DNA of 44,886 nucleotides from Candidatus Altarchaeales archaeon WOR_SM1_SCG (GCA_001723845.1 MCBE01000267.1:1-44886), one strand, 5' to 3'; positions 4,023-23,700 are shown, counted from the first letter of the stretch. Numbers and translations: made by a program. Notes: generated from the sequence alone by a model not told the origin.

Positions 4023-7000
4023 ATGGTAAAAATAAAACCCGTAGAGCGTTCATTTTATGCACCCATCATAAGGTTATTGGAAAATTTAGGTTTTACAGGA
4101 ATCTCAGAGGTAAAACCCATAGACACAGATAAGTATTTAGACATACTGTTTGAACATGAGGGCAAATCATATATTCTTGAAGTTAAGATAGCTGATAAAA
4201 AAGAAGACTTGCTCCCTGCTTTAGTAGGAGGTATAGTCCAAGTGTATGAGTATTCTTTAAAATATGAAACTAAAAATACGATAGTAATAGTTTATCCTTA
4301 TGATGTAAGAAAAGAAGGGACAATAGAAGAAGTAAATGAAATAGCGATTGATAGAACTTGTAAAGGTATATTTTTGACAAGGGAATGGGATGAACTTGTG
4401 GACCTTTCATTGAAAGAATCCATAACTCAGTTAAAAGGGAAAATAGACAATAAGTTACTATCTGCAAAAAATATTGAAACAGCATCCAAAGTATTACAAA
4501 GCAGCATAAAATCCCTATCCAAGTTGATTAACAAAGAGTACAAGGACGAGTTATCAATAAAAGAGTTAGCAAACTCTCTTACTGATGAACACGGACTTTT
4601 CCTATCATTAAGCAGAACAAAAAGCGAGAAATTACTTAGAAACCAAACAATTGACTTGATTTCGTATATTCTTGTAAACCAGATACTATTTTATTTTCTA
4701 TACTCAAAAAAGACAGGAAAGGTAGATGAAATAAGAAAAATCCAGACGATACGCGAACTCAATAATTATTTTGACCAAATAAAAGAAATCAATTTTGAAC
4801 CTATTTTTGATATTGATGTAATCTCCAAAATCCCTGTAACCAAGGATATTATAGAACAAGTAAATAACATAATTACGGTTTTGTATCCTTTAGGAATTGA
4901 GGAAATGAAACAGGATATTTATGGAAAACTCATAGGGAAATGTCTTCCAACGGAAACTCGCGAGGTATTAGCATCATATTATACAAAACCCACTTCTGCT
5001 AAATTATTAACAAACTTAACGATAAAAACATGGGATGAAAAAGTGTGGGACTTAGCTTGTGGCTCTGGAACATTACTTGTTGAAAGTTACAATAGAAAGT
5101 TGCAGGTTCACCCAAATAAAAGTATTCTAACATCAGAGGATAAAAAAGATATTCATCGAGATTTTTTAGAGGAACAATTAACCGGGACAGATATTATGTC
5201 CTTTGCCTGCCATTTAACAGGGTTAAACTTATCGGCTCAAAACTTGAGCACTGAGACCAAATTTATTAGAGTATCAAAAAGAAACTCATTGGAATTATTT
5301 AAGCTCCCTGCAGATGTTAAAGAAGCTTATGGAGATATTTCCAGTGTTATAGAACATATTAGTAGAAAGCAAAAGACAATACTTGATTTTAAAACTCCTG
5401 GCGATGAGATAACAAAAAAAGAATATCCTGCAAAAAAGTTCAAAATTGATAAAGTAGACACAATAGTTATAAATCCTCCATTTACAAGAATACAAGATGT
5501 TCCTGAAAAACTTAGAGGGGAATTTCTCAAACATCCTGTGTATAATATATGTGGGCGAAGAGTGGGATTATGGGGGCATTTCTTAGCATTATCTGATAAA
5601 AATTTAAAAAATGGGGGGCTGATTGGTGCAATAATCCCTATTAACTTTTTGAGAGGAGAAGACTCAAAAAAAATTAGGGAATATTATCTAAAAAACTATT
5701 CTTTTGAATATATAATCAAGCCACATAGGGGCACATCATTCAGTGAAGATTCTAACTTTACAGATATGATACTAATCGCTAGAAAAATACCTCCTGAATC
5801 CAATCATGAATTAAAGATAATATCACTTCGCAAACCAATTGATAGATATACAAGCACTGATGTTGAATCAATGGTGCGGGAACTTGAAACTGTTAGAGAA
5901 AAGGAAAAAGAAACTAAGGATTTCAGTATAATTAAAGTAGAGCAGAGCGAACTTTTAAAGAATAAGGAAAATTTAATGTCTTTTGTATTCGCCAAGAGTC
6001 TTACAAATAAAAAAAGGATATCTGAAGTCTTAGAAAAGTTAAAACTAATGGATAAAACAAAAAAAATAGAAAAAGACATTATATCAGAAGGTTTTCACGC
6101 ATCCCCCATGGGCGTTTCGCAAATTTTGTTTATTAATAACCCATTATCTGAAAGTAGATTAAGAAGGGCACACTTAATATTAGATGATGATAAGAATACA
6201 ATTTTTAAGTTTAAGATTAAAAACAAAAAGGAAGTATACTCTATAAACAAAAAGCAGTTAAAAAAATCTATTAGAACAATAACCAGTATCAAAAACACAT
6301 GGGTAAAAGATAAAGTTGACTACATGATACAATCAATACCTAAAGATTTTCAAAAGATAATTAATACGTCCAACTATAAGGGGTATTTGTTTACCTGGGA
6401 TGATGTCCCCGGAGACGATAGCGAGCGACTCCTAAAACATTTAGTGGATGACATAGAAATAGATTGGGTAAAAGATACTGAAATTAAGAAAAGCGATAAT
6501 AATAAAACGATAAACGTTATAAAGGGGGAAAACTCGCTCATATTCAAACTTAACAATGAAGAAAACAAAGTAAAATTAGAAACCAGTGGTGGAAAAGTTT
6601 ATAAATACATTTCAAAAAAGGAAAATGGTAAACTAAACATATACCATAAAGGGAAGGATATTCACTGGGAAAGAATCAACAAAGAAGTAAGCAAAAAAGA
6701 GTCGCATATCCTGATACCTAAGAGATTCAGGTTTAATTCTGATGAGACATCTGTCACTGCATTGCATTGTGACGAAAAAATAATTGCCCCTCACTCCTTT
6801 GAAGTTCTACCATCGGTTAGCAAAGAGGAATCTATTATATTATCATTATACATGAATAGCGTGTTATATTGGATACAACTTCTTAAGGTAAAGGAAGAAA
6901 CTACAGGGTCATGGATAGACATATCACAATCAGATTTGACACTCGTAGATTTACTTGACATTAAAAAGTTAAAAGACGATGAGAAACAAAAATTGATAAA

Positions 7001-7178
7001 ACTTTTAGATGAATTAAAAGATGTGGAGTTTGACCCTATATGTAAACAAATCCGGGATAAAAAAGATTACCGAATTAAAATTGATAAAGCGATACTTAAA
7101 GTTCTTGGGTTTCATGAAAAAGAGTCAAACAATATCATCAATGAGTTGTATTCCATCATATTAGACGAAATATGTTAA
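4023..7178 (+). CDS. Single-chain restriction-modification enzyme (PD-(D/E)XK nuclease plus N6-adenine methyltransferase)
   Basis: A 1051-residue protein. The N-terminal 130 residues look like a PD-(D/E)XK nuclease: Asp40 in KYLDILFE, then Glu53-x-Lys55 in ILEVKI. A helical linker follows, then an N6-adenine methyltransferase with motif I DLACGSGTLL at about 343-352 and motif IV NPPF at 484-487. The C-terminal third probably holds the target-recognition domain, interrupted at about 788-875 by the WDDVPG module. The order nuclease-methyltransferase-recognition in one chain fits type IIG enzymes, which cut and methylate with one polypeptide. No separate specificity or helicase gene is adjacent. 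It is A+T-rich relative to gatB and sits between duplicated gatB 5' ends, indicating recent insertion. The recognition sequence cannot be predicted, and the module may impair activity. Confidence 0.85.
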   Translation: MVKIKPVERSFYAPIIRLLENLGFTGISEVKPIDTDKYLDILFEHEGKSYILEVKIADKKEDLLPALVGGIVQVYEYSLKYETKNTIVIVYPYDVRKEGTIEEVNEIAIDRTCKGIFLTREWDELVDLSLKESITQLKGKIDNKLLSAKNIETASKVLQSSIKSLSKLINKEYKDELSIKELANSLTDEHGLFLSLSRTKSEKLLRNQTIDLISYILVNQILFYFLYSKKTGKVDEIRKIQTIRELNNYFDQIKEINFEPIFDIDVISKIPVTKDIIEQVNNIITVLYPLGIEEMKQDIYGKLIGKCLPTETREVLASYYTKPTSAKLLTNLTIKTWDEKVWDLACGSGTLLVESYNRKLQVHPNKSILTSEDKKDIHRDFLEEQLTGTDIMSFACHLTGLNLSAQNLSTETKFIRVSKRNSLELFKLPADVKEAYGDISSVIEHISRKQKTILDFKTPGDEITKKEYPAKKFKIDKVDTIVINPPFTRIQDVPEKLRGEFLKHPVYNICGRRVGLWGHFLALSDKNLKNGGLIGAIIPINFLRGEDSKKIREYYLKNYSFEYIIKPHRGTSFSEDSNFTDMILIARKIPPESNHELKIISLRKPIDRYTSTDVESMVRELETVREKEKETKDFSIIKVEQSELLKNKENLMSFVFAKSLTNKKRISEVLEKLKLMDKTKKIEKDIISEGFHASPMGVSQILFINNPLSESRLRRAHLILDDDKNTIFKFKIKNKKEVYSINKKQLKKSIRTITSIKNTWVKDKVDYMIQSIPKDFQKIINTSNYKGYLFTWDDVPGDDSERLLKHLVDDIEIDWVKDTEIKKSDNNKTINVIKGENSLIFKLNNEENKVKLETSGGKVYKYISKKENGKLNIYHKGKDIHWERINKEVSKKESHILIPKRFRFNSDETSVTALHCDEKIIAPHSFEVLPSVSKEESIILSLYMNSVLYWIQLLKVKEETTGSWIDISQSDLTLVDLLDIKKLKDDEKQKLIKLLDELKDVEFDPICKQIRDKKDYRIKIDKAILKVLGFHEKESNNIINELYSIILDEIC
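6384..6647 (+). mobile_element. WDDVPG module, copy in the restriction-modification gene
   Basis: About 88 codons encode YLFTWDDVPGDDSERLL, then a DWV...I.K.D.N.TI stretch, a lysine-rich middle and YISKKENGKLNIY. The same pattern occurs in the unrelated secreted protein at 15651-15911. Flanking codons encode NYKG on the left and HKGKD on the right, so removal would leave a plausible continuous NYKGKDIHWERI; the TAAGGGG and TAAAGGG flanks may be a short target duplication. Calling it mobile is inference from its distribution. Confidence 0.6.
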
Positions 7179-7374
7179 TGTAATATTTAACTCAAAAAAT
7201 AATTAATTATTAGGGTGTCATGAGAGTCAAAAAAATCACTTATCAAATTCAACTTGAGAGCGTCGTTTTTCTTTAAAAAACGGCACAATTTTGGATTTTG
7301 TGAAAAATCCATAATCGACATATATCGAGGTGGTTTTTTTAATTGTTAGGACACACTATTATATTCCTTTCAAA
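7179..7374. other. Junction region between the restriction-modification gene and intact gatB
   Basis: It holds copy 2 of the 26-bp gatB upstream repeat (7185-7210) and then about 160 bp not found upstream of the other gatB starts. Two short palindromes are visible: CGTTTTT/AAAAACG near 7264-7281, and GGATTTT/AAAATCC near 7293-7310 followed by AT-rich DNA, either of which might end the upstream transcript. No gene is recognised. An in-frame GTG at 7330 would extend GatB by 15 residues that resemble nothing in the other copies. Confidence 0.5.
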
Positions 7375-8748
7375 ATGCCTGAGCAAATCAATACGAAAAT
7401 CGGATTGGAAATCCATGTTCCCCTGAACACGAAAAGAAAACTGTTCTGCAACTGCCCGACAAATTATTACGATGTCTCGGAGCCGAACATAAATACATGC
7501 GAGGTCTGCACGGGAATGCCCGGAGCAAAGCCGTTTCCGATAAATTCCGAAGCATTAAAGACGGCGGTTATGGTTGCAAAACTCCTGAATTGTAAAATTA
7601 TTAATGAAAATAAATTCGTGAAAAGAAAACACTATAATTACCCTGACCTGCCGTCGGGCTACCAGAGAACATCGGAGCCGGTAGGCGAGGGCGGGAATCT
7701 TGAAGGCGTGGGAATCTGGGAACTTCACTTTGAAGAAGACCCGGGAAGGTATGATTTGCAGACGGGAAGGGTTGATTACAACCGCTCAGGCGTTCCTTTA
7801 ATTGAAATCGTAACAGCCCCGGACATGAAATCGCCCGAGGAGGTAAGAAATTTTTTAAAAATTTTAATTAACCTTTTGAAATATACCGAGAGGATTGTCG
7901 CAGTCGGCGGCGTGCTCAGGGCGGATGTGAACATTTCAATTGAAGGCGGGAACCGTGCGGAAATTAAAAATATAAATTCAATTAAAGGCGCCTACAAGGC
8001 AATAAATTACGAAATCATGCGCCAGAAAAATATCATGCGCCGCGGAGCTGAAGTAAGGCAGGAAACCCGCGGCTTTAATGAAAAGTCGATGATTACCTTT
8101 TCGCTGAGAACAAAAGAGACGCAGGCGGATTACCGTTACATTCCCGACCCCGATATACCGCCGCTTTATTTTGAAGAAGGTTATGTTGACGGAATTGAAC
8201 TGCCCGAAACGCCGCAGAGCAGGAAAGAGCGATTAATTAATGAATTTAAAATTCCCGGGAAATATGCAAAAACATTAATCCGCGACAAGGACATTGCCGA
8301 TTTATTTGAAGATGTTGCTGCAGGAAAAATTGACACCGAACTCGCTGCACAGTGGATTTCACAGGAGGTTAACAGGCAGCTTAATTACAGGACATCCGAA
8401 CTCATGGAAACAAAATTAAATTCTGCAATTATGGTTGAATTATTAACTTTGCTACAAAATACAGAAATTACTGAAAATGTCTGCAAGAAGTTATTAGAAA
8501 GGGTGATTGACTCGGGCGAAAGTCCTCTAAAAATCGTAAAGGATGAAAAACTTGGAAAGGTCTCCTGCGGGGATAAACTTGCCGAAGTTGTTGCCGAAGT
8601 TGTTGCCGAAAATGAAGATGCTGTTGATGATTACAAATCAGGCAATAAAACCGCAATCAATTTTTTGATGGGAAAGGTAATGCAGAAAATGAGGGGTGCG
8701 GCAGAAGCAAAGACCGTTATTTCCCTGCTAAAGGAAAAATTGGATTAG
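7375..8748 (+). CDS. gatB: Aspartyl/glutamyl-tRNA amidotransferase subunit B
   Basis: A 457-residue full-length GatB. With GatA and GatC it converts Glu-tRNA(Gln) or Asp-tRNA(Asn) to the amidated form, GatB providing the kinase/transamidation site. Family hallmarks are [22 protein letters not shown] and CEVCTGMPG (zinc-site cysteines), KHYNYPDLPSGYQ, FEEDPGR, DYNRSGVPLIEIVT, LRADVNIS and YRYIPDPDIPPL, plus a C-terminal GatB/YqeY helical domain with FLMGKVMQKMRGAA. The ATG at 7375 gives MPEQINTKIG, aligning with both upstream fragments; the earlier GTG at 7330 is rejected. gatA and gatC are not in the window. The 5' end was probably brought in with the upstream insertion, which restored the reading frame. 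Confidence 0.96.
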   Translation: MPEQINTKIGLEIHVPLNTKRKLFCNCPTNYYDVSEPNINTCEVCTGMPGAKPFPINSEALKTAVMVAKLLNCKIINENKFVKRKHYNYPDLPSGYQRTSEPVGEGGNLEGVGIWELHFEEDPGRYDLQTGRVDYNRSGVPLIEIVTAPDMKSPEEVRNFLKILINLLKYTERIVAVGGVLRADVNISIEGGNRAEIKNINSIKGAYKAINYEIMRQKNIMRRGAEVRQETRGFNEKSMITFSLRTKETQADYRYIPDPDIPPLYFEEGYVDGIELPETPQSRKERLINEFKIPGKYAKTLIRDKDIADLFEDVAAGKIDTELAAQWISQEVNRQLNYRTSELMETKLNSAIMVELLTLLQNTEITENVCKKLLERVIDSGESPLKIVKDEKLGKVSCGDKLAEVVAEVVAENEDAVDDYKSGNKTAINFLMGKVMQKMRGAAEAKTVISLLKEKLD

Positions 8749-8824
8749 TAAAATCAAAAAACCCGGAATTTTATTAAAAATATTTAAATTTAATTATTAA
8801 TTATTAATCGGAAAGTTATTTAAA

Positions 8825-9730
8825 ATGAACTTAAAAACATGGATTATGGCTTCAAGGGCACCGTTTTTTGTGGCGGTTATAATTCCCTCGCTGGTAGGCG
8901 GTGCAATCGCATACCATCACGGAAGTTTTGACCCCTTCCTATTGTTTATTGTAATTTTAGGTGTTGCCCTTGCAAACGGCGGCACGAATTTTATAAATGA
9001 TTATTTTGATTTCAAGAGCGGTGCTGATGCTACAAACAAAAACAGGACGCAGTTCAGCGGCGGAAGCCCATATCTCCCGGAGAATGTGTTAAATCCGAAA
9101 AAGGTGCTTTATGCAGGGCTGTTATGCTTTGCAGTTAGTTTATTGATAGTCGCGTATTTGACAGTAAAGGCAGGGTATCTCGTGCTTGTGCTTGCGGCAG
9201 TCGGCGGATTTATCGGTTACTTCTACACCGCACCCCCGTTTAAATTCGGGTACAGGGGAATTGGTGAAATTGTAACAGGTATCGGAATCGGATTAATCGT
9301 TCCCGGATGCTATTATGTTATGGCGGGAGCAATTACAATTGATGCGGTAATTGCAGCAATTCCCATTGGAATCCTTGCTGCAATGATTCTTTATGTAAAC
9401 GAAATCCCGGATTACAGTGCGGATAAGGGTGCTGGAAAAAGACATCTTATTGTCATGCTTGGAAAGGAAAAAGCCGTGAAATTCATGCCGTTGATATTTC
9501 TTCTAGTGTATCTGAGCATAATTTTCGGGGTTGTTTTTAAAATCATGCCCGTATGGACACTTATCGCACTTCTCACAATCCCGATTGCATTAAATGTCGT
9601 AAAAATCGCAAAAAACAATTACAACAACACAAAAGGATACATCCCTGCAATGGCAGGTACGATAAAAATATATGCCGCAACAGGAATTCTATTGTGTATA
9701 GGTTATTTGATTCCCGTGTTTTTGGGCTAA
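8825..9730 (+). CDS. UbiA-family prenyltransferase (MenA-like)
   Basis: A 301-residue integral membrane protein with about eight or nine hydrophobic helices. It carries both aspartate-rich motifs of the UbiA superfamily: NDYFDFKSGAD at 58-68 and NEIPDYSADK at 192-201, plus the loop YTAPPFKFGYRGIGE. These enzymes transfer a polyprenyl chain from its diphosphate to an acceptor, with Mg2+ held by the aspartates. The sequence is closest in feel to dihydroxynaphthoate prenyltransferases (MenA), but archaeal UbiA proteins also make lipids and other products, and no quinone genes are adjacent. The acceptor is therefore left open. Confidence 0.9.
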   Translation: MNLKTWIMASRAPFFVAVIIPSLVGGAIAYHHGSFDPFLLFIVILGVALANGGTNFINDYFDFKSGADATNKNRTQFSGGSPYLPENVLNPKKVLYAGLLCFAVSLLIVAYLTVKAGYLVLVLAAVGGFIGYFYTAPPFKFGYRGIGEIVTGIGIGLIVPGCYYVMAGAITIDAVIAAIPIGILAAMILYVNEIPDYSADKGAGKRHLIVMLGKEKAVKFMPLIFLLVYLSIIFGVVFKIMPVWTLIALLTIPIALNVVKIAKNNYNNTKGYIPAMAGTIKIYAATGILLCIGYLIPVFLG

Positions 9731-9919
9731 ATAAACCCTGCAATTATTGATTACTGCATTATCTTTTTGATACAGAAAAATCAGGTAAGTCATGTAAACG
9801 AGAGCAGCCAAAATATTTCCGTTTACAAAAATGAAACAACACATAAAATAAATGTTACGGAAAACAGAACAGGGAACGCAACGGTTGTAATACCGCTTGA
9901 AAAGCCGCCGTTTATTTAA
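9731..9919 (+). pseudogene. Remnant of a surface-protein reading frame
   Basis: Immediately after the ubiA-type gene, the same frame stays open to a TAA at 9917-9919 without a usable ATG. The second half reads like a secreted protein: NISVYKNETTHKINVT, then NRTGNATVVIPLEKPPFI, dense in N-x-S/T sites as in the giant protein nearby. I infer the 3' remnant of a lost cell-surface gene. It is probably not expressed as a protein. Confidence 0.4.
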
Positions 9920-9990
9920 CTGCGAGAAATTTCAATTTATTTTTTATAAATCCTTATATTTAATGGATAACAATATAAAACAAGGAAAAA

Positions 9991-10203
9991 ATGAACACCC
10001 AGGAATGGATAGTAAACCACTTTGAAGAACTTGTAAACAAGTACACAGGCAAGTACATCGCAGTAGTTAACAAAAATGTTGTAAGTACAGGAGGCGAGGC
10101 AGCGGATGTTGAAAAGGAAGCAGTTAGTAAATACCCTGGTGAAATGCCATCAATTATTTTTATACCAAGAAAGGAGGATTTAGCATGTCTTCTAATCCAA
10201 TAG
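9991..10203 (+). CDS. DUF5678-like small protein
   Basis: A 70-residue protein, MNTQEWIVNHFEELVNKYTG followed by KYIAVVNKNVVSTG and ending PSIIFIPRKEDLACLLIQ. This pattern (E/W-rich start, GKYIAVV, KYPGE..PS, PR.ED) is that of the archaeal and bacterial DUF5678 family, often the first gene of a pair with a small retropepsin-like protein. No function is established. The next start codon (10185) overlaps its 3' end. Confidence 0.7.
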   Translation: MNTQEWIVNHFEELVNKYTGKYIAVVNKNVVSTGGEAADVEKEAVSKYPGEMPSIIFIPRKEDLACLLIQ

Positions 10204-10250
10204 TATTCAGGTACAGTGAGTATAAGGACATAACAATTCCAATAGATTAA
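10185..10250 (+). pseudogene. Truncated partner gene of the DUF5678-like protein
   Basis: An ATG at 10185 is preceded by a strong ribosome binding site, AAGGAGGATT at 10171-10180, but the frame ends after 21 codons (MSSNPIVFRYSEYKDITIPI, then D). The sequence resembles the beginning of the retropepsin-like proteins that usually follow DUF5678 genes, so it looks like a partner cut short by deletion. It could instead be a genuine short peptide. Confidence 0.45.
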
Positions 10251-10274
10251 AATCAATTAAAAAATAAAAACCCA

Positions 10275-10736
10275 ATGAAATCAATGAAACCGAAAATTTT
10301 AGAGAGGCATGAAAAGTCAATAAATGAATTTGTTGAGATGCTTTTAGATAAGTTTAAGGATAGGATTGCGGCAATTGTCCTTTTTGGCTCGGTTGCAAAA
10401 GGCACGGCAAAGAGAACATCAGATATAGACCTGTTGATTATCGCACACGATGTACCAAAAAGAATGCTGGATAGAGAAGAAATGCTTGCAGATGAAATAA
10501 TGAAGATAATCAAAAAACATTATGTACGGATAATGCCTATATTATTAGAGCCGCAGGAGTTGTCCACAAGATATATAAATCCATTGTTTTACGGCATGCT
10601 GACCGGATACAGTGTCCTGTATGACCCTCAAAAATTATGGAGTAATTATCTTTTGAAAATAAAGCCGAGGATATTACAAAAAAAACCAATATATATTGAA
10701 AATGAAAAAAGATGGCAGATAGCAGAGATGATATAG
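10275..10736 (+). CDS. MNT-type nucleotidyltransferase (antitoxin)
   Basis: A 153-residue protein with a minimal nucleotidyltransferase fold. The motif is FGSVAKGTAKRTSDIDLLII, where Gly38-Ser39 and the Asp50-x-Asp52 pair are the nucleotide and metal-binding residues. The length is typical of MNT proteins with an extended C-terminal part. In MNT/HEPN modules the nucleotidyltransferase neutralises the HEPN toxin, in studied cases by adding AMP to it. The HEPN gene follows and overlaps by 25 bases, so the two are translationally coupled. Confidence 0.88.
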   Translation: MKSMKPKILERHEKSINEFVEMLLDKFKDRIAAIVLFGSVAKGTAKRTSDIDLLIIAHDVPKRMLDREEMLADEIMKIIKKHYVRIMPILLEPQELSTRYINPLFYGMLTGYSVLYDPQKLWSNYLLKIKPRILQKKPIYIENEKRWQIAEMI

Positions 10737-11173
10737 ATATAAACCTTATCAAAGCATTTGAACAGAGAAGCAGGGCAGACCTTCATAGTGCGAACTCGCT
10801 TTTGAAATCAGGCGACTATGCGGATGCTGCATATCACGCGCAGCAGTGTGCAGAAAAGATAGTAAAGTGCATACTTATTCTGAATAATCAATTTGAGAGA
10901 ACGCACCTAACATCAGGTATTTTTGAGGAGTGCATATCCCTGCTTGATGATAAAAATGAATGGAAAAATAAACTTAATGATGCTGTTGAAGAAGTAAGGC
11001 GGTTAGAAAAACACTGGATACTTCCAAGATACCCGGAACCATATAATGAGGATGTATGGAATCCGATAGAAGAATATACAAAAAAAGATGCCGAAGAAGC
11101 AATAGAAAAGGCAAAATTCGTGCTTGATACTTTAACGGGATTTATGAAAGAAGTTCACGGAATTGAATTTTAG
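10712..11173 (+). CDS. HEPN-domain protein (toxin of an MNT/HEPN pair)
   Basis: A 153-residue helical protein of the HEPN family. The N-terminal helix pair includes DYADAAYHAQQCAEKIVKC, the classic HEPN helix, and a later segment reads RRLEKHW, an R-x4-H motif that fits the catalytic motif of HEPN ribonucleases, followed by PRYPEPY. In MNT/HEPN modules the HEPN protein is usually the RNA-cleaving toxin. It overlaps the MNT gene by 25 bases. A long HEPN of this type could also act mainly as a complex-forming partner. Confidence 0.85.
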   Translation: MADSRDDIDINLIKAFEQRSRADLHSANSLLKSGDYADAAYHAQQCAEKIVKCILILNNQFERTHLTSGIFEECISLLDDKNEWKNKLNDAVEEVRRLEKHWILPRYPEPYNEDVWNPIEEYTKKDAEEAIEKAKFVLDTLTGFMKEVHGIEF

Positions 11174-11386
11174 TTGTTACATGATTAATAAATTAATAAA
11201 GAATATGTACGGGCAGCAGTAGATTAGAGCAATGTGGATTGATTTGTTAGTTCATGTCCTGCTTTCTATGCAACAGCAGATAATAAATTATAAATTTTAC
11301 CTACATGATTTATCGGGTTTTCAATCAAAACAATTAAATTTCTTTTAATCCATATCTTTAATATGGGGTTAAAATTTGCTGCTCTT
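11174..11386. other. AT-rich intergenic region
   Basis: No gene is recognised in this stretch. It separates the toxin-antitoxin pair from the secreted-protein locus and must contain the promoter for the small peptide gene at 11436. Confidence 0.5.
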
Positions 11387-11431
11387 GCAGAAAATAATTA
11401 TTTTATTATTTTCTGCGGCGGGTGAGGTGAT
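11387..11431 (+). promoter_or_regulatory. Perfect 12-bp hairpin plus strong Shine-Dalgarno site
   Basis: GCAGAAAATAAT (11387-11398) pairs perfectly with ATTATTTTCTGC (11405-11416) across a 6-base loop. Seven bases later GAGGTGATT (11423-11431) is complementary to the 16S tail ATCACCTCC. The hairpin would lie in the leader of the mRNA directly before the ribosome binding site of the small secreted peptide. It may control translation or protect the 5' end. Confidence 0.6.
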
Positions 11432-11435
11432 TAAC

Positions 11436-11645
11436 ATGAAATATAAAAATAAATTAACCGGGCTGGCAGTGGCTTTTTGTTTGATCTTGTTAGCGGGGAG
11501 CGTGTCCGCTGTAAAATTAAATTCTCATACCGATTATCAAAGCAGAGCATTGATTAAAGAAATTAATGACCCGCTATCATGCGGACTCTGTAAAAGTCAT
11601 TTCACATTCATTAATACAGGGCATTTACAAAGAGTGAATGCTTAA
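11436..11645 (+). CDS. Small secreted peptide sharing the giant protein's signal sequence
   Basis: A 69-residue protein starting at the ATG after the strong Shine-Dalgarno site; an upstream start at 11376 is rejected because its codons form the regulatory hairpin. The signal peptide MKYKNKLTGLAVAFCLILLA, continuing GSVSA, closely resembles that of the giant protein (MRHKQKLIGPAVVFCFICLI). The mature part is about 44 residues with a CGLC motif. It could be a functional small secreted protein, or the start of a former large surface protein cut short by a stop. Confidence 0.6.
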   Translation: MKYKNKLTGLAVAFCLILLAGSVSAVKLNSHTDYQSRALIKEINDPLSCGLCKSHFTFINTGHLQRVNA

Positions 11646-11702
11646 TTAAAGTCAAATGTTTCAAAAATTAAAAATAAAATTGAGTATAGTATAGAATAAA
11701 AC

Positions 11703-14700
11703 ATGAGGCATAAACAAAAGTTAATCGGACCAGCAGTGGTTTTTTGTTTCATTTGTTTAATTGGAAGTGTCTCTGTTTATGCAGAGATTAATGCAACAAT
11801 TACTGCGGCAATTATAGAATCTGGTAATTTTACGGCAGGTGATGGAGTAGATGCAGATGTGTGTATAGAGAATATAGGTAATGAGACACATACATTCTGT
11901 ATTGGCTATTCTGTCAGGGACGGTAATTATAGTGGTCCAGATGGTGGATGGTGGGATATATCTTGTGAAAATATATCTTTACATCCAAAAAGTGGAGGAG
12001 GTAGTTATTCTGGATGTAAAACTCTTACTTGGATAGTCAATTCGACTGCCCCATCTGGTTCTTATTATGCTCGTGTAGCAGTATGGGCCAACCCACCTTC
12101 GCCTGGAGACACATGGCTTGATTATAACGATACGCTCGATGCATTTAATGTTGTTCCTCCAACAGTTGATGCAACAATTACTTTGAATGATGTATATCCT
12201 GATAATTGTAAAGAAGGCGATAGTGTTTATGCCAATGTATTTGTAAATAATACAGGGGATTTAGATGTTTGCTTTGACATTGACTTTTATGTTTACCCTT
12301 CCGATGGTGGCTTCTGGAACGGGTCCTCTGAACTTCTTTGTCTTGATGTGGGCGAAACAGGTTATGAAACTCTTAACTGGACTGTTCCTTCAGAGGCACC
12401 AACTGGTTATTATGGCGCTTTTGTGTATGTATTAGATTTTGGAACGCCGCTTGATTCAGATACCGAATATGATGCATTTAATGTTGTTCCTCCAACAGTT
12501 GATGCAACAATTACTTTGAATGATGTATATCCTGATAATTGTAAAGAAGGCGATAGTGTTTATGCCAATGTATTTGTAAATAATACAGGGGATTTAGATG
12601 TTTGCTTTGACATTGACTTTTATGTTTACCCTTCCGATGGTGGCTTCTGGAACGGGTCCTCTGAACTTCTTTGTCTTGATGTGGGCGAAACAGGTTATGA
12701 AACTCTTAACTGGACTGTTCCTTCAGAGGCACCAACTGGTTATTATGGCGCTTTTGTGTATGTATTAGATTTTGGAACGCCGCTTGATTCAGATACCGAA
12801 TATGATGCATTTAATGTTGTTCCTCCAACAGTTGATGCAACAATTACTTTGAATGATGTATATCCTGATAATTGTAAAGAAGGCGATAGTGTTTATGCCA
12901 ATGTATTTGTAAATAATACAGGGGATTTAGATGTTTGCTTTGACATTGACTTTTATGTTTACCCTTCCGATGGTGGCTTCTGGAACGGGTCCTCTGAACT
13001 TCTTTGTCTTGATGTGGGCGAAACAGGTTATGAAACTCTTAACTGGACTGTTCCTTCAGGAGCACCAGCCGGTTATTATAATGCTTTCGTGTATGTATTA
13101 GATTTTGAAACGGGAACGCAGCTTGATTATGACCGTGAAGATGACGCATTTAATGTTTATGAGGAATCCAGGAATTATACCCTAACCGTTCAAGTTTATG
13201 ACAATGACACTAATCAAATAATTAGGAATGCCTTTGTTTATTTAGATGATAATCTTATAGGAACAACAGATTTAAATGGAGAGATTTCCATATTTCCCGT
13301 TATAGTGGGTATTCATACAATAAAGGCAACAAAAAGTGAGTACTATGACGGAATAATAACTGTAAATGTATCTTCAAACAAAACAGTTCCAGTTTATCTG
13401 GTTCCAATTGAGCAGGGCAACTACACCATAAGAATTCAAGTTTATGACAACGAGACAGGTTACATGATTAGTAATGCTGAAGTATATCTGGATAATATTT
13501 ATAAAGGAAAAACAGATTCAGACGGGGAGATTTTCATCTTTAATGTTACAGGGGGGAGCCATACAATAAAGGCAACAAAAAACGACTACCATAATGGAAC
13601 CAGAAATATTTATGTAGGTCCAAACACTGCTTTTACGATTCCACTTATGCCAAAAACAGAAAGTGTAGAAGGTTATGTTAGAAATTCAGTTACTGGAAAT
13701 CCTATTGTTAGTGCTGAAGTGAGTATCGGAAACCACACAGATTTTACTGATTACAACGGGTATTACTTATTGGAAAAATTACCTCTTGGAACACAAACAA
13801 TCACAGCATCAAAATCAGGATATGTTCCTTATTCAGGAAATGTAACGATCATAAAAAATACTCAGAGGACATTCAATATACTGTTAACTCCCTATAGTAC
13901 TGGTAGTGTAGGAGGTCACATCAACGATTCAGTTACTGGAGATCCTGTTATTGGTGCTGAAGTGAATATCGGAACTTACTCTGATTACACGAATTCTAAT
14001 GGATATTATCTGTTAGAGAATATTCCCATAGGGAAACATGAATTAACTGCATCAAAATCGGGATATATTTCTCATTCGGAAAATGTAACTATCACAGATA
14101 ATACTCTAACAACATTAGATATATCGTTACAACCTTCTGAACTTAACTTGCCTGATTACATAGTAAATAATGTTGAATTTGAGCCATACCCAACCTTATA
14201 TGAAAACATCACAATTAAAATCTCACTTGCTAATATTGGTGGTCTTGATACTCAAGACGGATGGAAGCAGATTACTGTTAAAGTTTATGATGGAACAATT
14301 GCCAATGAAATAGGGGAAAATACTATTCACTCAGATTTCAAAGGACACGACCTTGAAGTACAATGGTTTCCTTTATCTACCGGGCCCCGGGATATTATAG
14401 TAGAAGTTGATGCAACAAATACGATGCTGGAATCTAACGAAAAAAATAATGAATGGATTAAAAACGTGAATGTGAATAAAATTTATGTCCGGCTTGTTGA
14501 GCTTAGTAAAAATTATAGACCAGAGAACTATGCACTTATCGTTACTCCCAGTGTTCAAGAAGGTTACCTTCCTCTTGATGTTGATATGAAGATGTACAAT
14601 CAAAAGGCAACTTGGTATGAAATTCAAATTAACGACCCTGATGGCGAACAAACTGGATGTTTTGATTGTGGTTTTTCTGATCTTTCAGAGATTTTTTCTC

Positions 14701-17700
14701 ATAGAGGCATCCAACCAAAAGGAACTTTCTCTCGGAGTCGTATTAGTTATAATCCTCTTGAAGCATGGGTTGATAATCCCCTTGGATATTACCCTGTCAC
14801 TTTTGATTATACTTTAGATTATCAAGATACTTGCATGAGCATACAGGCTAGCAGAGGCACTACATACGCAAGAATATTTAACACCGTAGATGCATTTGTT
14901 TTAGCAGCCACAGGTGACCATATAGATTATAATATATTTGTTGAGGGCATACTTAAAAAGATGGATCTTTCAACTCGGCAAAAAGTGATATATAAAATTT
15001 CCCAAGGAGATGGAGTTGGAGTAATTGAGGAACTTGCTAAATGGTTTGAAGATATGGACAATTGTGCAGAGTATGCGCAATTCTTGATTTTTTATCGTAA
15101 TAAAGATGAGGTTGAACTAACTAAAATGAAAAAGGACGCAAAAAGATTTGCAAAGAGATTAGGTATAGTGGTAAGATTTTATACTATCACTCAAACCTTT
15201 GGGGATACATACCTTGCGACAGTGGATGATCAAGTTATAATATCCTTTGAAAAGATAGAAAACCCATCCACAAAAAGTACTTATAGTTCTACACAAGGTG
15301 CATTTACTGCTCAAAGCATTTCTACTGCTCAAAATGTTCAAGGAGAGAATAATGAAACGGAATTTAAATCGCCGATAATTAATTTGATATCACCAAAAAA
15401 TGCAGAGTTAACCAGTACGAATATTACTGTGTCAGGAAATATCACTAATAGAATATCCGATAAGCAGTTACTTGCATATCTTCTTGTTGACGGACAAGCA
15501 GTAAATCAACTAATTCTTGATGAATTGGGACGATTTAATCAATCTATCATAGTTAGTGAAGATTATGTGTTCAGCTGGGATGATGTCCCTGGAAATGAGA
15601 GCGGCAGACTTATAGATTTTCTGGAGAAGAATCAAAATCTGGAGTTAATATATGTGTTCAGCTGGGATGATGTTCCCGGAAATGACAGTGATAAACTTAT
15701 AGGTTTTCTGGAAAATGACCTGAATGTAAGCTGGGTAAAAAACCCCACAATAAACAAAGCTGATGATAACAGAACTATAAATGTATCGGACGGATTGAAT
15801 TTAATTACCCTTGAACTTAACGGTACTGAAAATAAGATAACAATAGAAATCAATGGTGCTGGGACTTATGAATATATTTCAAAAGAGGAAGACGGTACGC
15901 TGAACATGTACAATGCAACACTGGAAAAAACCGAGGATAACAAAACAATTACACTTGCAAACGGAGAAAACTTAATTATTCTTGAACTTAATGATACGGA
16001 ACATAAAGCAACCATGGAGGTTAATGGTGCAGAGGTTTACGAGTACATCTTAAAAGAAGAGAATAGTGGATTAAACTTATATAGTGAAGCGGTTCATATT
16101 ATAACTGTCAGAGCCAACAATACAAATATAACACTAAAACTCAATAATACAAATATCTCAATTGATAATACTGCTGAAGTATCTGTCGCGATTTTGGCAG
16201 GAACACATCCTAACCGGACATTTTTTTCATATACCGGGGCAAGTCCCTCCAGAGTATCTACAAATGGCGAAATTAAAATACATGCAAAAATCGTTGGCGG
16301 GTTCACGGGCTATGTTAATGCAACAGTTAATGATACAACAGTTCCATTGATATACAACTCAACGACAGGGTTTTTTGAGAATGTAATTTTTGCTCCAAGT
16401 GTCAATGGGACTTATAGGATTAATGTAGCAGCAATTAATTTGACATGGAATATAGTGGCACAAAATAATTTAAGTATAATAACTGTTGAGAACCCATCAC
16501 TCATAATTAATGAGGCATATTCAGATAAATTATCATATAAATTAAATGAAAGTGTAACGATATATAGTTTAGTACAGGATGAAAATGGAAATAGTATTTC
16601 TCCAGATAGTATTTACGCCACCATCAAAAATCCTGTTGGTCATGTAACTCAAATAGTTCTAAATCAAGAATATCCGGGGCACTATAGCGGATCCTTCATT
16701 AACACTACATTATTAGGAGAGTATGATGTAACAGTATATGCCAACAAATCAGGATACGCCAATGCAACATATTCATTTACATTTGATGTATTTAATTACC
16801 TCCCCGCAGCATCAATTACTTCACCGGAAAATGGAAAATCGTATGGAGAAAATTATCCAATAACCTTTGAGGGTTTCGGTGTAGATAAGGACAGTGCGAT
16901 CAATTCCTTTACCTGGACATCAAATATTGATGGAACATTAAGAATTAATTCCAATCCTGCTTGTTCAAAACAAACAGATACGCAATGTGATGATTCATTT
17001 AGTATCTCAAATTTATCTGTGGGTACACATATAATAACCCTCAAGATCATAAGTGATGATAATGGATTTGATATTGCACGAAAGACAATAAACATTATTC
17101 TGTGCTCCTGTTCAAATTGTAGTGACTGCACAGCAAAGTTAAGCGATCCTAATTGCAATGTTGTTGCCTTAACGGTGGACATAACAGATCATTCAGGAAC
17201 ATGTATTGATAATCCGATAAGTTTCAGCAATAAAATATTCAACTGTCAAGGATACATGATTGATGGAGATGAATCAGGAAACAGTTACGGTATATTCACA
17301 AATTCTCAAAATAACATTACAATACAAAACTGCAATATTACGAATTTTCAATATGCAATAAGAGTTGTAAAAACGCATAATTCTACATTTACAAATCTGA
17401 AGGTATCTACATTTGACAGAAGCCAAATTACAGCAGTAAGCTCATATGGCATATATTCAACCGGAAATAATAACGGGTTTTTTGAAATTCACGCGCACTC
17501 AATCAACGGAGATGATGATTCTGCGGGGTGTGGAGATAATGGAGGTGATGCCTATGGCATATATTCATCAGGGAGCAACTGCAATTTTTCAAATGTAACT
17601 TTAGATAATATTAATGGTGGCTATGGAGCATTAGAATCATCCTGTAGCCCAAAACAGGGTGATGGAGGTGATGCCTATGGCATATACTCAACAGGAAGTA

Positions 17701-20700
17701 ATAACACATTTACAGGTGTAAGAACAAACTTAATTAGAGGAGGTTATGGTCAAAATGCTGCATTCTCAGGCGTTGGCAGATGCGACGGTGGAGACGGAGG
17801 TGATGCCTACGGCATATATTCATCAGGAAGCAACAACACATTTACAGGGATAAACACAAGCAACACCGTAGGTTTTCATTGTGGATATGGAAGTTATAGT
17901 ACAGGAACTACAGGAGGCGATGGCGGAGACGGAGGTGATGCCTACGGCATATACTCAACAGGTGACAATAACACATTTATGAATACAAATGAATATTTAA
18001 CTATCGGGTACTCTGCATGTACTGGAGGTTACGGCGTTTCGGGTTATGGTGCAAGCGGCGCGGAAGGGAAAGGTTACGGTTTATATATTTCAGGCAAGGG
18101 AAATAAATTAATCTCAAATGCGATCTGTTCAAATGAACACTATGACATTTACAACACATACTCAAAATCGGGTAACAACAACACGTGCAACACAATAAAT
18201 AATTGGGGTGATGTTGGAATTGAAAGGGGCTGCACTTTCAGATGCGATGGTGCTGCATGTGATTTTGATAATGATTTCTATACAAAAACTGCTTGTAATG
18301 GAACGGATTGTGATGATAATAATTCAAATAAATTTCCCGGAAATCCAGAAATTTGTGACGGACTTGATAATGACTGTGATAAAAGTATAGATAATGGTTT
18401 AACCCCTTATCTAAACAACTCAAATCAGAAAGGAGTTTGTGCAGGTTCTAAAAAAACATGTAAAGGCGTATCTGGATGGCAAGATGATTACTCTGGAATA
18501 CCTTATTATGAAGAAACCGAATTAAGCTGCGATGGAAAGGACAATGACTGCGATGGAATTGCTGATGATAACCTAATTGCTCCAAACAACACAAACCAGG
18601 CGGGAGTTTGCAAAGGTTCCACAAAAACATGTAAAGGTGCATTGGGCTGGCAGGATGATTACTATAAAATAGGTTATTATGAAGAAACTGAATTAAGCTG
18701 CGATGGTATGGATAACGACTGCGATGGAAAGATTGATAATGACTTACCTACTCATTTGAACTCAAACCAGAAGGGTGTTTGTGCAGGTTCTAAAAAAACA
18801 TGCAGCGGTGCATCTGGATGGCAGGATAACTACTCTGGAATATCTGATTATCAAGAAACTGAGACACTTTGCGATAAAAAAGATAATGACTGCGACGGGG
18901 AAATAGACGAATACGAGGGATGCAGAGCAGACCTTACTATAGAGTCATTAATCTGCTCCAATGAAAGCGCAATGATCTGCGATGAGGTAAATATAACCTC
19001 TGTTGTAAAGAATCTTGGGTTTATTAATGCTTCGGGTCTGGATTATGTCAGGGTTTATCTTTTCGTTGATAATGTTTATGAGGACTCAAGAACAATAAAC
19101 TTAACAGGCAATGATGCTGGAGAGGTGAATTTCACATGGACTGCTGTTCGTGATGCTGGTGTGCATAATTTAAAGATTTTTGCCGACTATGATAATTTGA
19201 TAGAAGAGAAAAATGAAAGCAATAATTTTAAATCAAAGAATATAACCGTAATCATCAAACCGCCTGTTGCGTCCAATCCGTCGGTTGTTCCGGCAGTATC
19301 CACAGTAGATGTTAAAACTTTATTTAACTACTCCATAGAGGTCAGCGACAGCTACGATAACTGCGATGATATGATAAATGTACTGCTGGAAGTGCGCGAC
19401 CCGTCATCAGGCGAATGGAAATCATACAGCATTGTAAATATTTACGGCTCTGGAACTGCGTGGTGGCTGGTTAAGCCATTTGATGAAAATGATGAGAATA
19501 TGAATCCATCATACAGGTTCAAATACAGCGACAGTTTTGATCAGACAGGAACATGGGGCGAATACGATGGACCAACTATTCTTGATGAAGATACTCAGGG
19601 ACCAGTGTTTAATCTTATATGGAAAAGCGGTAATGTCTCATCAGACCGGTTTTATATTGCAAGTGTTGAAATTGAAGATCCTTCAGGCGTTTTATATAAT
19701 TCAACTTCACCTGTATGCTACTACAGTTACGGTCCAAATGTCAGCGATTCAAATTATGCAGGTTATGTGAGCATGTCCTTAACCGACACCGGACTGCCAT
19801 TGGGCTTTACAGGATATATTCCTCCGTCAGGGGATGAAAACGAGAACAAAACAATTTATTTCAGGATTTACGCCCACGACAATGACAACAGCCCTGCACG
19901 AGGAGATAGTGGCGTGATTGAAGGCGGCAAAATACTGGACGATGACACTGAACCGCCTGTAATCCATTTAAACTCGCATTATTACCCTGAACAGATGATA
20001 AGCGGGAAAAATATATCTGTCTTACACATCAAAATCAATGATAAATCAGGAATTTCAAACACAACATTAAAATATTCCTATAATAAAAATTCATGGAGTA
20101 CCGGAACACAGTCATATTCGGGAAAGGACTGGACTTTCACAATCCTGCCGCAGAGCGAAGACCATGAAGGAGAGACGCTATATTTTTATGTAGAAGCATG
20201 TGATGATGATAATTCAAAGGAATGCTCAAGGAATGATAATGATGGAAATTATTATAATATTTCAATTTTAGATGAAGATATATATCCCCCGTTCATACAT
20301 GCGGTAAAGGTTGAAGAGACAGTTTATGATAACGGTGTGATCTCACCGGGTGAAAATATTACAATTTCCTGGGGTGCAAATGATATGAACAATATCAGTG
20401 AAACCAGCTGCAATGTTACTACAAATGGGTGCAGTAGTGTCGGTTCCGTGCAAAATTCTAACGGCGGCTACTATGTTATTGTTGAAAACTGTGCGGCATC
20501 AAATGCGAGCAACTTTACGGAATATGATTTCACAATAACTGCCGAAGACAATGATAATTCAAAAAATTCAAGTACAAAAACAGGAACTTTCAGGGTTTAT
20601 TCAAACAGAACCGAGATGACAACTAAATTTTCAGATAATTCAACGAGTAAGATTATAGTGTTTGAGGGGGCAGGGTCAAAGGTGGTTAATGTTACAATTC

Positions 20701-23700
20701 CAACGCAGGGTGAAGTTATAGATGCGAGTTTTGATCTTTATTCACTGTTTGATGAAGCGGTTGTGGTTTTGAATCTTAAGTCAAATCCTTATGTGGGTGG
20801 GAATTGGACTGTTGATTTTGTGACAACAGGTTCTGGGGCGGATGCGTTGAAGGTTACTGCGATTGATGGGACTGAGTTTGGAGTTGATATTGATTTTTTG
20901 GGGTTGTACTGCGGGGATGAAGAAGTTGATTTTAATGTTACGGGCAATGAGTATTTTTCTAATAACTGGGACTGCCTGGAAGAAGGGCATATTGTGAATG
21001 AAGTTTTGACAGAAGGGGAGCATCATTTGAGGGTAGAGTTTGGAGATGAGGTTGGTTTTGCAGATAATTATGCTGGTTGTACCTGTAATACATGTGATGA
21101 TTGTGAGGTAAAGTTAAATGATTCTGGTTGCACTGAGGTTAGATTAACTACGGATATAAACGATTACGGTGGAATTTGTATCAACAATCCTGCAAATTTT
21201 AACAATAAGATATTTGACTGTCAAGGACATACAATTGATGGAGATGGTTCCGGGGGGGATTATGGAATTTATTTAGATGAGAATTATGGGAATACGATCA
21301 AAAATTGTGTGATACAACAGTTCCAATATGGAATTAAATCTACTGGACCTACCAATACTTTTTTAGATATAACTGCTTCGGATAACCGGGGCAATAATGG
21401 TTACCATGGATCTGGAGATGATAGTTATGGAATTTACTCTTCAGGTGATCATGTTATATTCTCAAACGTGATTGCTTCGTCTAATTATGGGGGTAGTGGT
21501 CATCACGATGGTGACGACGGCTACCCGGGTGGTTATAGCTATGGGATTTATTCATCTGGCGACTATGTTACATTCTCAAGCGTGACTACTTCGGTTAACC
21601 GTGGGGGGGATAGCAATGGTGGCTACAGCGGTGTTTTTGCTGGCTATGGCTATGGAATTTACTCTTCAGGTGATCATGTTATATTCTCGAACGTGATTGC
21701 TTCTTCTAATCGTGGTGGTGATGGTAGTGGTAGTAGAAGTAGCTATGGGGGTACAGGATATGGGGTTTACGTTTCGGGTAATGACATTACCTTTTCAGAT
21801 GTGACTGCATCTTATAATCATGGCGGCAGTGGTACGGGTTCTGGAGATTACGAAAGTCGGGGAGGAGTAGGGTATGGGATTTACGTTTCAGGTAATGACA
21901 TTACCTTTTCAGATGTGACTGCATCTTATAATCATGGTAACGAGGGGTGGGGCGGTGGTCCCGGTGGATCAGGGTATGGAATATATGCTCCAAATAATAA
22001 TATTGAATTTTCACATGTAACTGCTTCGTCTAATTATGGAGCACATGGCGCTTATGGCGCTTTTAGTAACCCGGGTCATGGAGGTAGTGGTTATGGGATT
22101 TATGCCCCAGGTAGTGGAGTCACATTCTCATACATAAATGCTTCTTATAATTATGGAGGCGATCGAGGAAGTGGTAAACGCTGTGCACCTGGTGGTCAAG
22201 GTTATGGAATTTATACATTAAGCAATAATATTGAATTCGTATATGTGAATGCTTCGCATAATTATGCAGGCAGTGGAGCTAATGGGAACGCTCACAGCAA
22301 TGTAGGATCTGGAATTAACGCTCCAGGAGACAACAATATTTTCTTGCATGTGAATGCTTCGCATAATGGAGGAGGTGCAGGAGTATATTGCCAAGACTGT
22401 AACGAACATGGTAGTCCAGGACATGGGATTTATGCCCCCGGTAACAATATTGAATTATCAGACATAGTAACTTCATATAATTATGGAGGGGGAGCTGGAA
22501 CTGCTCGCAATGGTGGTCCAGGTTATGGGATTTACTTATCAGGTGATGGAAGTACTTTCTCAGATATAACTGCCTCGTATAACAGGGGAGGAGGAGGGGG
22601 TAGTAGTTATAGTGGTCCGGGTTATGGGATTTATTTAGATTCTTCATCAAATAATACTCTAAATTATATAACTACTTCTTCTAATCGTGGTGGTAACGGA
22701 GGTTATTGGAAGGGTGGAAAGAGTGGCGGTACAGGTTATGGAATTTATTTAGATTCTTCATCAAATAATAATCTAAATTATATAACTGCATCTTCTAATC
22801 GTGGTGGTAACGGAGGAGTTACTTATAGCAGTGACTATAATGGAGGTGATGGAGGTACTGGTTATGGTGTTTATTTATTCTCATCATCAAATAATAATCT
22901 AAATTATATAACCACTTCTTCTAATCATGGTGGAAATAAAGGTTGCTTTCATACCAACCCCAGTTATAAATGTGGTGTTGATGGTTCTGGTTACGGAATT
23001 TACTCACATAGTTCAACTTCAACTATAGATTCAAGTATTGTTTGCAATAATACAAATTTAGACCTTAGTTCTTCTGACTGGTTATCAAGTTCTGGAGATA
23101 ATAATTATTGTGATAAACCGGATGGGTGGAATGATGATGGAGCGACCGGATGCACTTTCAATTGTCCGTGTCCGTGCTCAAGTTGTGATGATTGTGAGAC
23201 GCAGTTAAGTAACGCTTCTTGTGATGTGGTTATGTTAACAGCAGATATATCAAATTATGCTGGGATTTGTATAAACAATCCTGTAAATTTCAGCAATAAG
23301 ATATTCGACTGTCAGGGGCATATGATTGATGGTGTTGGTAATATATTTTCTTGGCCACCTGAATATGGGATTCATCTGAATGGGAAATCGGGGAATACGC
23401 TTAGGAATTGTATAGTTAATGAATTTGGCTGGGCAGGAATTAGGTTAGAATCTTCTTCAGGCAACACCGTAACCAGCAACACATTAAATTCAAACGGTGT
23501 TGGAATTTGGGTAGACTACTCCTCAAACAATAATATAATAAGCAATACTGCAAATTCAAATTTGTATGGGATTTATTTCTACAGTGCTTCAAACAACAAT
23601 GTTAATGAGAACCAATTATGCAGTAATTCAAATACGGATATAGATATTAGAAGTGGTTCAGGTAACACGGGTGATAACAATAAATGTGATAAAACTTCTG

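Follow-up and report, generated by a model that had tools for sequence, protein, structure and literature searches.

The window, which is the whole stretch of DNA analysed here (44,886 nucleotides of Candidatus Altarchaeales archaeon WOR_SM1_SCG, GCA_001723845.1 MCBE01000267.1:1-44886), carries the same protein module in a restriction-modification enzyme and in a giant secreted protein. The initial annotation had placed this module in frame in both proteins, and their alignment bears this out, with 49% identity over 87 residues, no gaps and E = 1e-32 in a single comparison. The borders given there were roughly right but have to be shifted slightly: the element begins one base before the first Tyr codon, at 6383, and ends at 6644, and the last residue that had been counted, H, is part of the right-hand target-site duplication. 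The features are as follows.

4023-7178, plus strand: first host, a restriction-modification enzyme with an N6-methylase domain (PF02384 N6_Mtase), 1051 residues including the insert
6375-6382, unstranded: left target-site duplication of copy 1, TATAAGGG, one substitution relative to the empty site TATAAAGG
6383-6644, plus strand: coding element of copy 1, 262 bp, encoding the 87-residue module YLFTWDDVPG...KLNIY
6384-6396, plus strand: 5' terminal inverted repeat of copy 1, TATTTGTTTACCT, one mismatch to the consensus TATTTGTTTAGCT
6631-6643, minus strand: 3' terminal inverted repeat of copy 1, TATATGTTTAGTT on the minus strand, one mismatch
6645-6652, unstranded: right target-site duplication of copy 1, CATAAAGG, one substitution relative to the empty site TATAAAGG
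11703-28019, plus strand: second host, a secreted multi-repeat protein of 5438 residues
15555-15562, unstranded: left target-site duplication of the outer copy (copy 2), AGTGAAGA
15563-15650, plus strand: N-terminal third of the outer copy, module residues 1-29 (profile match 1-28 at 15564-15647)
15651-15911, plus strand: inner copy (copy 3), a complete 87-residue module within the outer copy (profile match 1-87, E 6e-33)
15912-16082, plus strand: C-terminal part of the outer copy, module residues 31-87 (profile match 31-87, E 2e-13)
16083-16090, unstranded: right target-site duplication of the outer copy, AGTGAAGC, 7/8 relative to the left one

Excision of the inner copy restores a complete outer module of 86 residues flanked by AGTGAAGA and AGTGAAGC; the window therefore holds three copies, one nested in another. 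As DNA, the start motif occurs three times in the window without a mismatch, the chance expectation being 0.15 for up to two mismatches. Among nested copies, duplications are seen around the outer copy of the window (7/8) and in RadC (L059, 8/8); the flanks of the inner copy (15642-15649 and 15912-15919) agree at 3/8 positions or fewer, and its duplication is not recognisable any more. Nesting near module residue 30 occurs both at 15563-16082 of the window and at G027:C60:54838-55497, in unrelated hosts; at the latter locus the N-terminal third of the module is also found in tandem, with a 90-bp period. Elsewhere in the window, three near-identical repeats of about 108 residues (PPTVDATITLNDVYPDNCKEGDSVYANVF...) lie near the N-terminus of the giant secreted protein (12200-13100), and adjoining nucleotidyltransferase-like and HEPN-like ORFs (10275-11173), recognised by eye, probably form an MNT/HEPN toxin-antitoxin pair.

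The element can be written as G-TATTTGTTTAGCT...AGCTAAACATATA-C, 262 bp that include neither a start nor a stop codon. Its ends are inverted repeats of 13-14 bp (GTATTTGTTTAGCT...AGCTAAACATATAC), and the terminal inverted repeat TATWTGTTTAGCT is kept at both ends at synonymous sites. Thus, the Leu at codon 2 is encoded by TTG in 69% of cases versus 8% within modules (p 2e-46), the Ser at codon 4 by AGC in 87% versus 18% in the module interior, and the 3' Ile by ATA in 92% versus 35%. Conservation at synonymous positions means that the ends are selected as DNA and not just as protein. When the 8-bp flanks of 103 distinct full copies were compared, 442 positions matched, versus 272±12 with the partners shuffled (maximum of 321 in 10,000 shuffles). 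A match of at least 6/8 was found in 34 of these copies, against 3.0 expected, and the excess was confined to a width of 8 bp. A 9-bp duplication was considered and rejected, because the base preceding the first Tyr codon is already part of the element. The element and one duplication together amount to 270 nt, or 90 codons, and insertion therefore never shifted the reading frame of the host.

Genes lacking the insert reveal the state of the targets before insertion. The closest orthologue of the restriction-modification enzyme, in genome G027, is 83% identical and lacks exactly 90 codons; in place of the element it has the empty site TATAAAGG, from which both TATAAGGG and CATAAAGG of the window differ by one change. 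Five more homologues were found, and none of the six carries the module, so that it is not a constant part of this enzyme family. A second empty site lies in the CTP synthase gene of G027, which reads GAACATATT / AAACAAATC where the filled gene of a congener has AAACAAA on both sides of the insert. The two proteins are 98% identical over residues 1-128, and the insertion is, by this comparison of sequences, fresh. In the filled protein the Pfam PyrG model covers residues 5-131 and resumes at residue 223, after the insert; other PyrG matches in the phylum consist of the flanking parts only. The proposal of the initial annotation that the module is an in-frame mobile insert is thus upheld by the terminal inverted repeats, by the 8-bp target-site duplications and by presence or absence of the module between congeners.

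The hosts have no function or location in common. Conserved families interrupted by the module are PyrG, RadC, ATP-dependent DNA ligase, LonB, IS1634 transposase and Eco57I methylase; the DNA ligase contains five copies and LonB two. RadC is a host in three Altarchaeum genomes, in one of which a second copy is nested in the first, so that the module is itself a host. Further hosts are several Eco57I-type methylases, a FecCD permease, an ion channel, an HD protein, pentapeptide proteins, tail and baseplate proteins, and a ribose-phosphate pyrophosphokinase, the last identified by reading its sequence. The matches lie within many unrelated families and have precise borders marked by the duplications, the pattern that the initial annotation had proposed to look for; they extend to unrelated intracellular enzymes and are not limited to related surface proteins, the distribution named beforehand as that of an ordinary domain. 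Six identical IS1634-family transposase genes at contig ends of the window's genome (L003-L008) each carry the module, and the transposase therefore apparently stayed active despite the insert.

Occurrence in enzymes as essential as CTP synthase and DNA ligase would be understandable if a splicing element, a mini-intein or intron-like, were removed from the product and left the hosts intact. We regard this as scarcely credible. The 103 copies have no intein splice residues, since they start with Tyr or Phe and end with Tyr (Y/F-LFSW... / ...LNIY), there is no Pfam intein match, and a precise splicer should not leave target-site duplications behind in the product. The RNA fold is not strong (z -1.7 and -0.7 versus shuffles), and selection acts on both the reading frame and the sequence of the protein.

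In the window's genome (2.55 Mb, 74% complete) the module is matched 24-25 times. Within the phylum, the Altiarchaeota, 8 of 29 genomes are positive; five of them have at least 10 copies, namely the window's genome and four from a single other genus (g20), and the other three carry a single copy, located in a giant ORF in each case. For the order to which Methanoperedens LC1 belongs (Methanosarcinales-order), about 345 matches were counted in 77 of 186 genomes, with a maximum of 28 per genome. Named loci belong to Altiarchaeota, ANME-1, Methanophagales, ANME-2, Methanoperedens and Methanosarcina, which gives substance to an earlier impression that similar sequences recur in uncultured archaea; single loci are labelled Aquificota and Anaerolineales. 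The other 32 archaeal genomes first sampled lack the module. The module matched no IMG/VR or phage record, on which ground a virus was rejected as the carrier. A divergent full copy is present in a baseplate assembly protein on plasmid pn3 of Nostoc sp. UHCC 0926 (L217, about 2500-2800). All listed matches to the module, designated type A, are free of stop codons except one in the phylum search. The closest copies in different hosts have 85-88% DNA identity, which suggests recent jumps. One copy in the window's Altiarchaeota genome is 82% identical to a copy of ANME-1 GoMg1 versus 81% to its own best paralogue, and one copy from Altarchaeum (L095) clusters with those of Methanosarcinales; from these identities and this grouping we infer probable horizontal transfer between phyla.

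The ends are not restricted to this module. Non-coding elements of 98-323 bp in Altarchaeum genomes have the same ends, often perfect 8-bp duplications, and stops in all frames, and the window's genome has one such element of 193 bp. A second coding module, type B (YLFSL..EYKKYL...LNIY, about 68 residues), likewise has the same inverted-repeat ends and is found within genes in the window's genome, in Altarchaeum and in 16 Methanosarcinales-order genomes (loci L113 (G000:C241), L013/L114, L020, L040/L054 and L166-L186). Types A and B can be aligned only over their last 22 or so residues, and the duplication signal of type B is weaker (p = 0.007, 18 copies). The methyltransferase at L013 carries modules of both types.

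A mobiliser would be expected to be an insertion sequence bounded by GTRTWTGTTTAGCT and flanked by duplications of 8 bp; no transposase gene bearing the element's ends was found in the searched genomes. L080 (G028:C3:3900-6500), the only locus where an IS lies between two ends of this kind, was rejected as the autonomous parent: its IS630, at 582-1766, has its own 20-bp inverted repeats and flanking TA, and it jumped into a non-coding relative of the element and is not its driver. IS66, an idea that came from the 8-bp duplications, is no more than a lead; IS66 transposases in the searched genomes lack such ends. In the window's genome an IS-like, multi-copy contig end has the ends TGTTTGTTTAGCT, and no transposase was recovered there. 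Three contigs (C53, C251 and C279; L108, L109 and L110) start with an identical 125-bp repeat that ends in AGCTAAACAAACAC and contains an open frame ...GAGNYAKLASLIATWKLNDKNIKDELRSVIVSNLCLSS. This repeat may represent the tail end of the autonomous transposase that was not found; to the eye it is IS66-like, and the encoded 38 residues match no Pfam family.

The module belongs to no Pfam family, has no meaningful NCBIfam match and no sequence match in the PDB. AlphaFold2 (33 sequences) predicts, with a pLDDT of 94.5 and a pTM of 0.83, a compact alpha/beta fold composed of a short N-terminal bridge, two helices and six strands, the last of them C-terminal. A Foldseek search of the PDB gave no match below 1e-3, the best being frataxins (TM 0.42). 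In a model of the module in RadC, which has few usable homologues and low confidence outside the module, the terminal segments are strands 69-74 and 153-159; strands at both termini fit a pairing of the ends. Between orthologous hosts, the module shows a dN/dS of 0.17-0.41 in LonB and 0.14 in RadC, compared with 0.11-0.16 for host sequence. Judged by these ratios, purifying selection acts on modules that have become fixed in orthologous hosts, slightly less strongly than on the host itself, and values well below 1 indicate that the module is probably translated and that its sequence matters. A defined transposable element with terminal inverted repeats and target-site duplications, its nested insertion in the window and selection on the module after insertion are additions to what the initial annotation contained.

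The confident prediction of a compact fold, the purifying selection and the multiple copies per protein (five in the DNA ligase) are also what an ordinary functional domain would display if it were shuffled by recombination and lent its hosts a common property such as binding or regulation. Such a domain is a very improbable explanation. Its hosts share neither function nor location, its borders are precise and bear 8-bp duplications, its ends are conserved at synonymous sites, orthologues of the same genus lack it, and non-coding elements with the same ends exist. As a means of spread, shuffling is contradicted by the empty sites with their 8-bp duplications.

Early co-option, in which inserts would have been kept for a benefit beyond tolerance, for example by stabilising or regulating proteins, is a somewhat more serious alternative, although we consider it unlikely. 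It would agree with the low dN/dS after insertion and with the scarcity of intergenic-looking copies (about 4/103: L014, L095, L128 and L129); same-ended non-coding elements, having stops in all frames, cannot sit in frame within genes. Against it are the lack of a pattern among the hosts and presence or absence even between congeners. Moreover, a domain that needs only not to misfold would also yield dN/dS < 1, and an insert that is lost imprecisely ruins a gene, which is not so for one lost from between genes. Some copies may have been co-opted, which would account for selection on fixed modules.

Very probably, then, the module is encoded by a non-autonomous transposable element (MITE) that is coding from end to end and tolerated in its hosts as selfish DNA. 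Terminal inverted repeats, target-site duplications of fixed length, short size, multiple copies and the lack of a transposase of its own are all features of MITEs. This reading rests directly on the ends, the duplications, the empty sites, the nesting, the unrelated hosts, the near absence of stops and the purifying selection after insertion. In the proposed sequence of events, a transposase acting in trans would recognise the inverted-repeat ends, and staggered insertion would duplicate 8 bp, as seen at the empty sites. In one of six combinations of orientation and phase the host would gain about 90 residues, which are predicted to fold by themselves into a compact alpha/beta domain. In the models the first and last residues, encoded by the inverted repeats, are placed in terminal strands, an arrangement by which a host loop may accept the insert and host activity may survive. 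The insert would remain in the mature protein and the hosts would remain active. A benefit to the host would be unnecessary, the element persisting inside genes as a tolerated domain. On balance we also favour, with less assurance, a wider view: selfish DNA that survives by way of the protein it adds would have been selected for a stable, self-folding domain with paired ends and mobilised in trans among unrelated essential genes, archaeal phyla and occasionally bacteria, in at least two unrelated-looking families (A and B) with the same ends.

Mobile elements that insert coding sequence in frame are chiefly known in Rickettsia, and the peptide added there is short; the Rickettsia palindromic elements (RPEs) of that genus are palindromic. 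The archaeal insert is predicted to form a compact domain and numbers hundreds of copies, with CTP synthase, DNA ligase, LonB and RadC among its hosts and with clean empty sites. Whether transposons can spread inside working proteins, and whether selection shapes them to fold, have thereby become testable questions. In practical terms, the inserts introduce errors into the gene models, domain annotation and phylogenies of uncultured archaea; they are also natural examples of enzyme sites that accept an insertion of 87 residues. No prior description of the motif or element was found in open-access papers.

Among known systems, the nearest in behaviour are the RPEs (Ogata et al. 2000/2002), which PMC10969869 summarises as Rickettsia elements of about 150 bp, in several families, inserted in frame in many unrelated genes, with a conserved encoded peptide and orthologues lacking the RPE. 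The element resembles them as a small in-frame insert in many unrelated genes, with a conserved peptide and insert-free orthologues. Unlike RPEs, it is archaeal, 262 bp long, has inverted repeats only as 13-14-bp ends, makes 8-bp duplications and encodes a predicted domain of 87 residues. The whole element folds no better than z -1.66 / -0.74 versus shuffles and hence lacks the strong hairpin of RPEs; no Pfam or NCBIfam match joins the module to RPEs. Prokaryotic MITEs are short, multi-copy sequences with terminal inverted repeats and target-site duplications and without a transposase, some of which contain ORFs, e.g. ERIC and BOX (PMC10969869). The element shares these traits, including the lack of a transposase, but typical MITEs are non-coding or have incidental ORFs, whereas here there is one open frame whose protein sequence is conserved across archaeal phyla. 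Horizontally spread coding repeats of 25 residues are similar as coding DNA repeats that move between microbes; they are tandem and reside mainly in ORFs without assigned function and in membrane proteins, in contrast to the present element, which enters conserved enzymes as a single insertion of 87 residues and duplicates its target. Mini-inteins, too, are in-frame inserts in conserved enzymes that the hosts tolerate, but the element lacks splice-junction residues, its target duplications persist and there is no sequence match. We read the element, by analogy, as one that works like RPEs and is formally a MITE apart from the autonomous partner, but is built differently.
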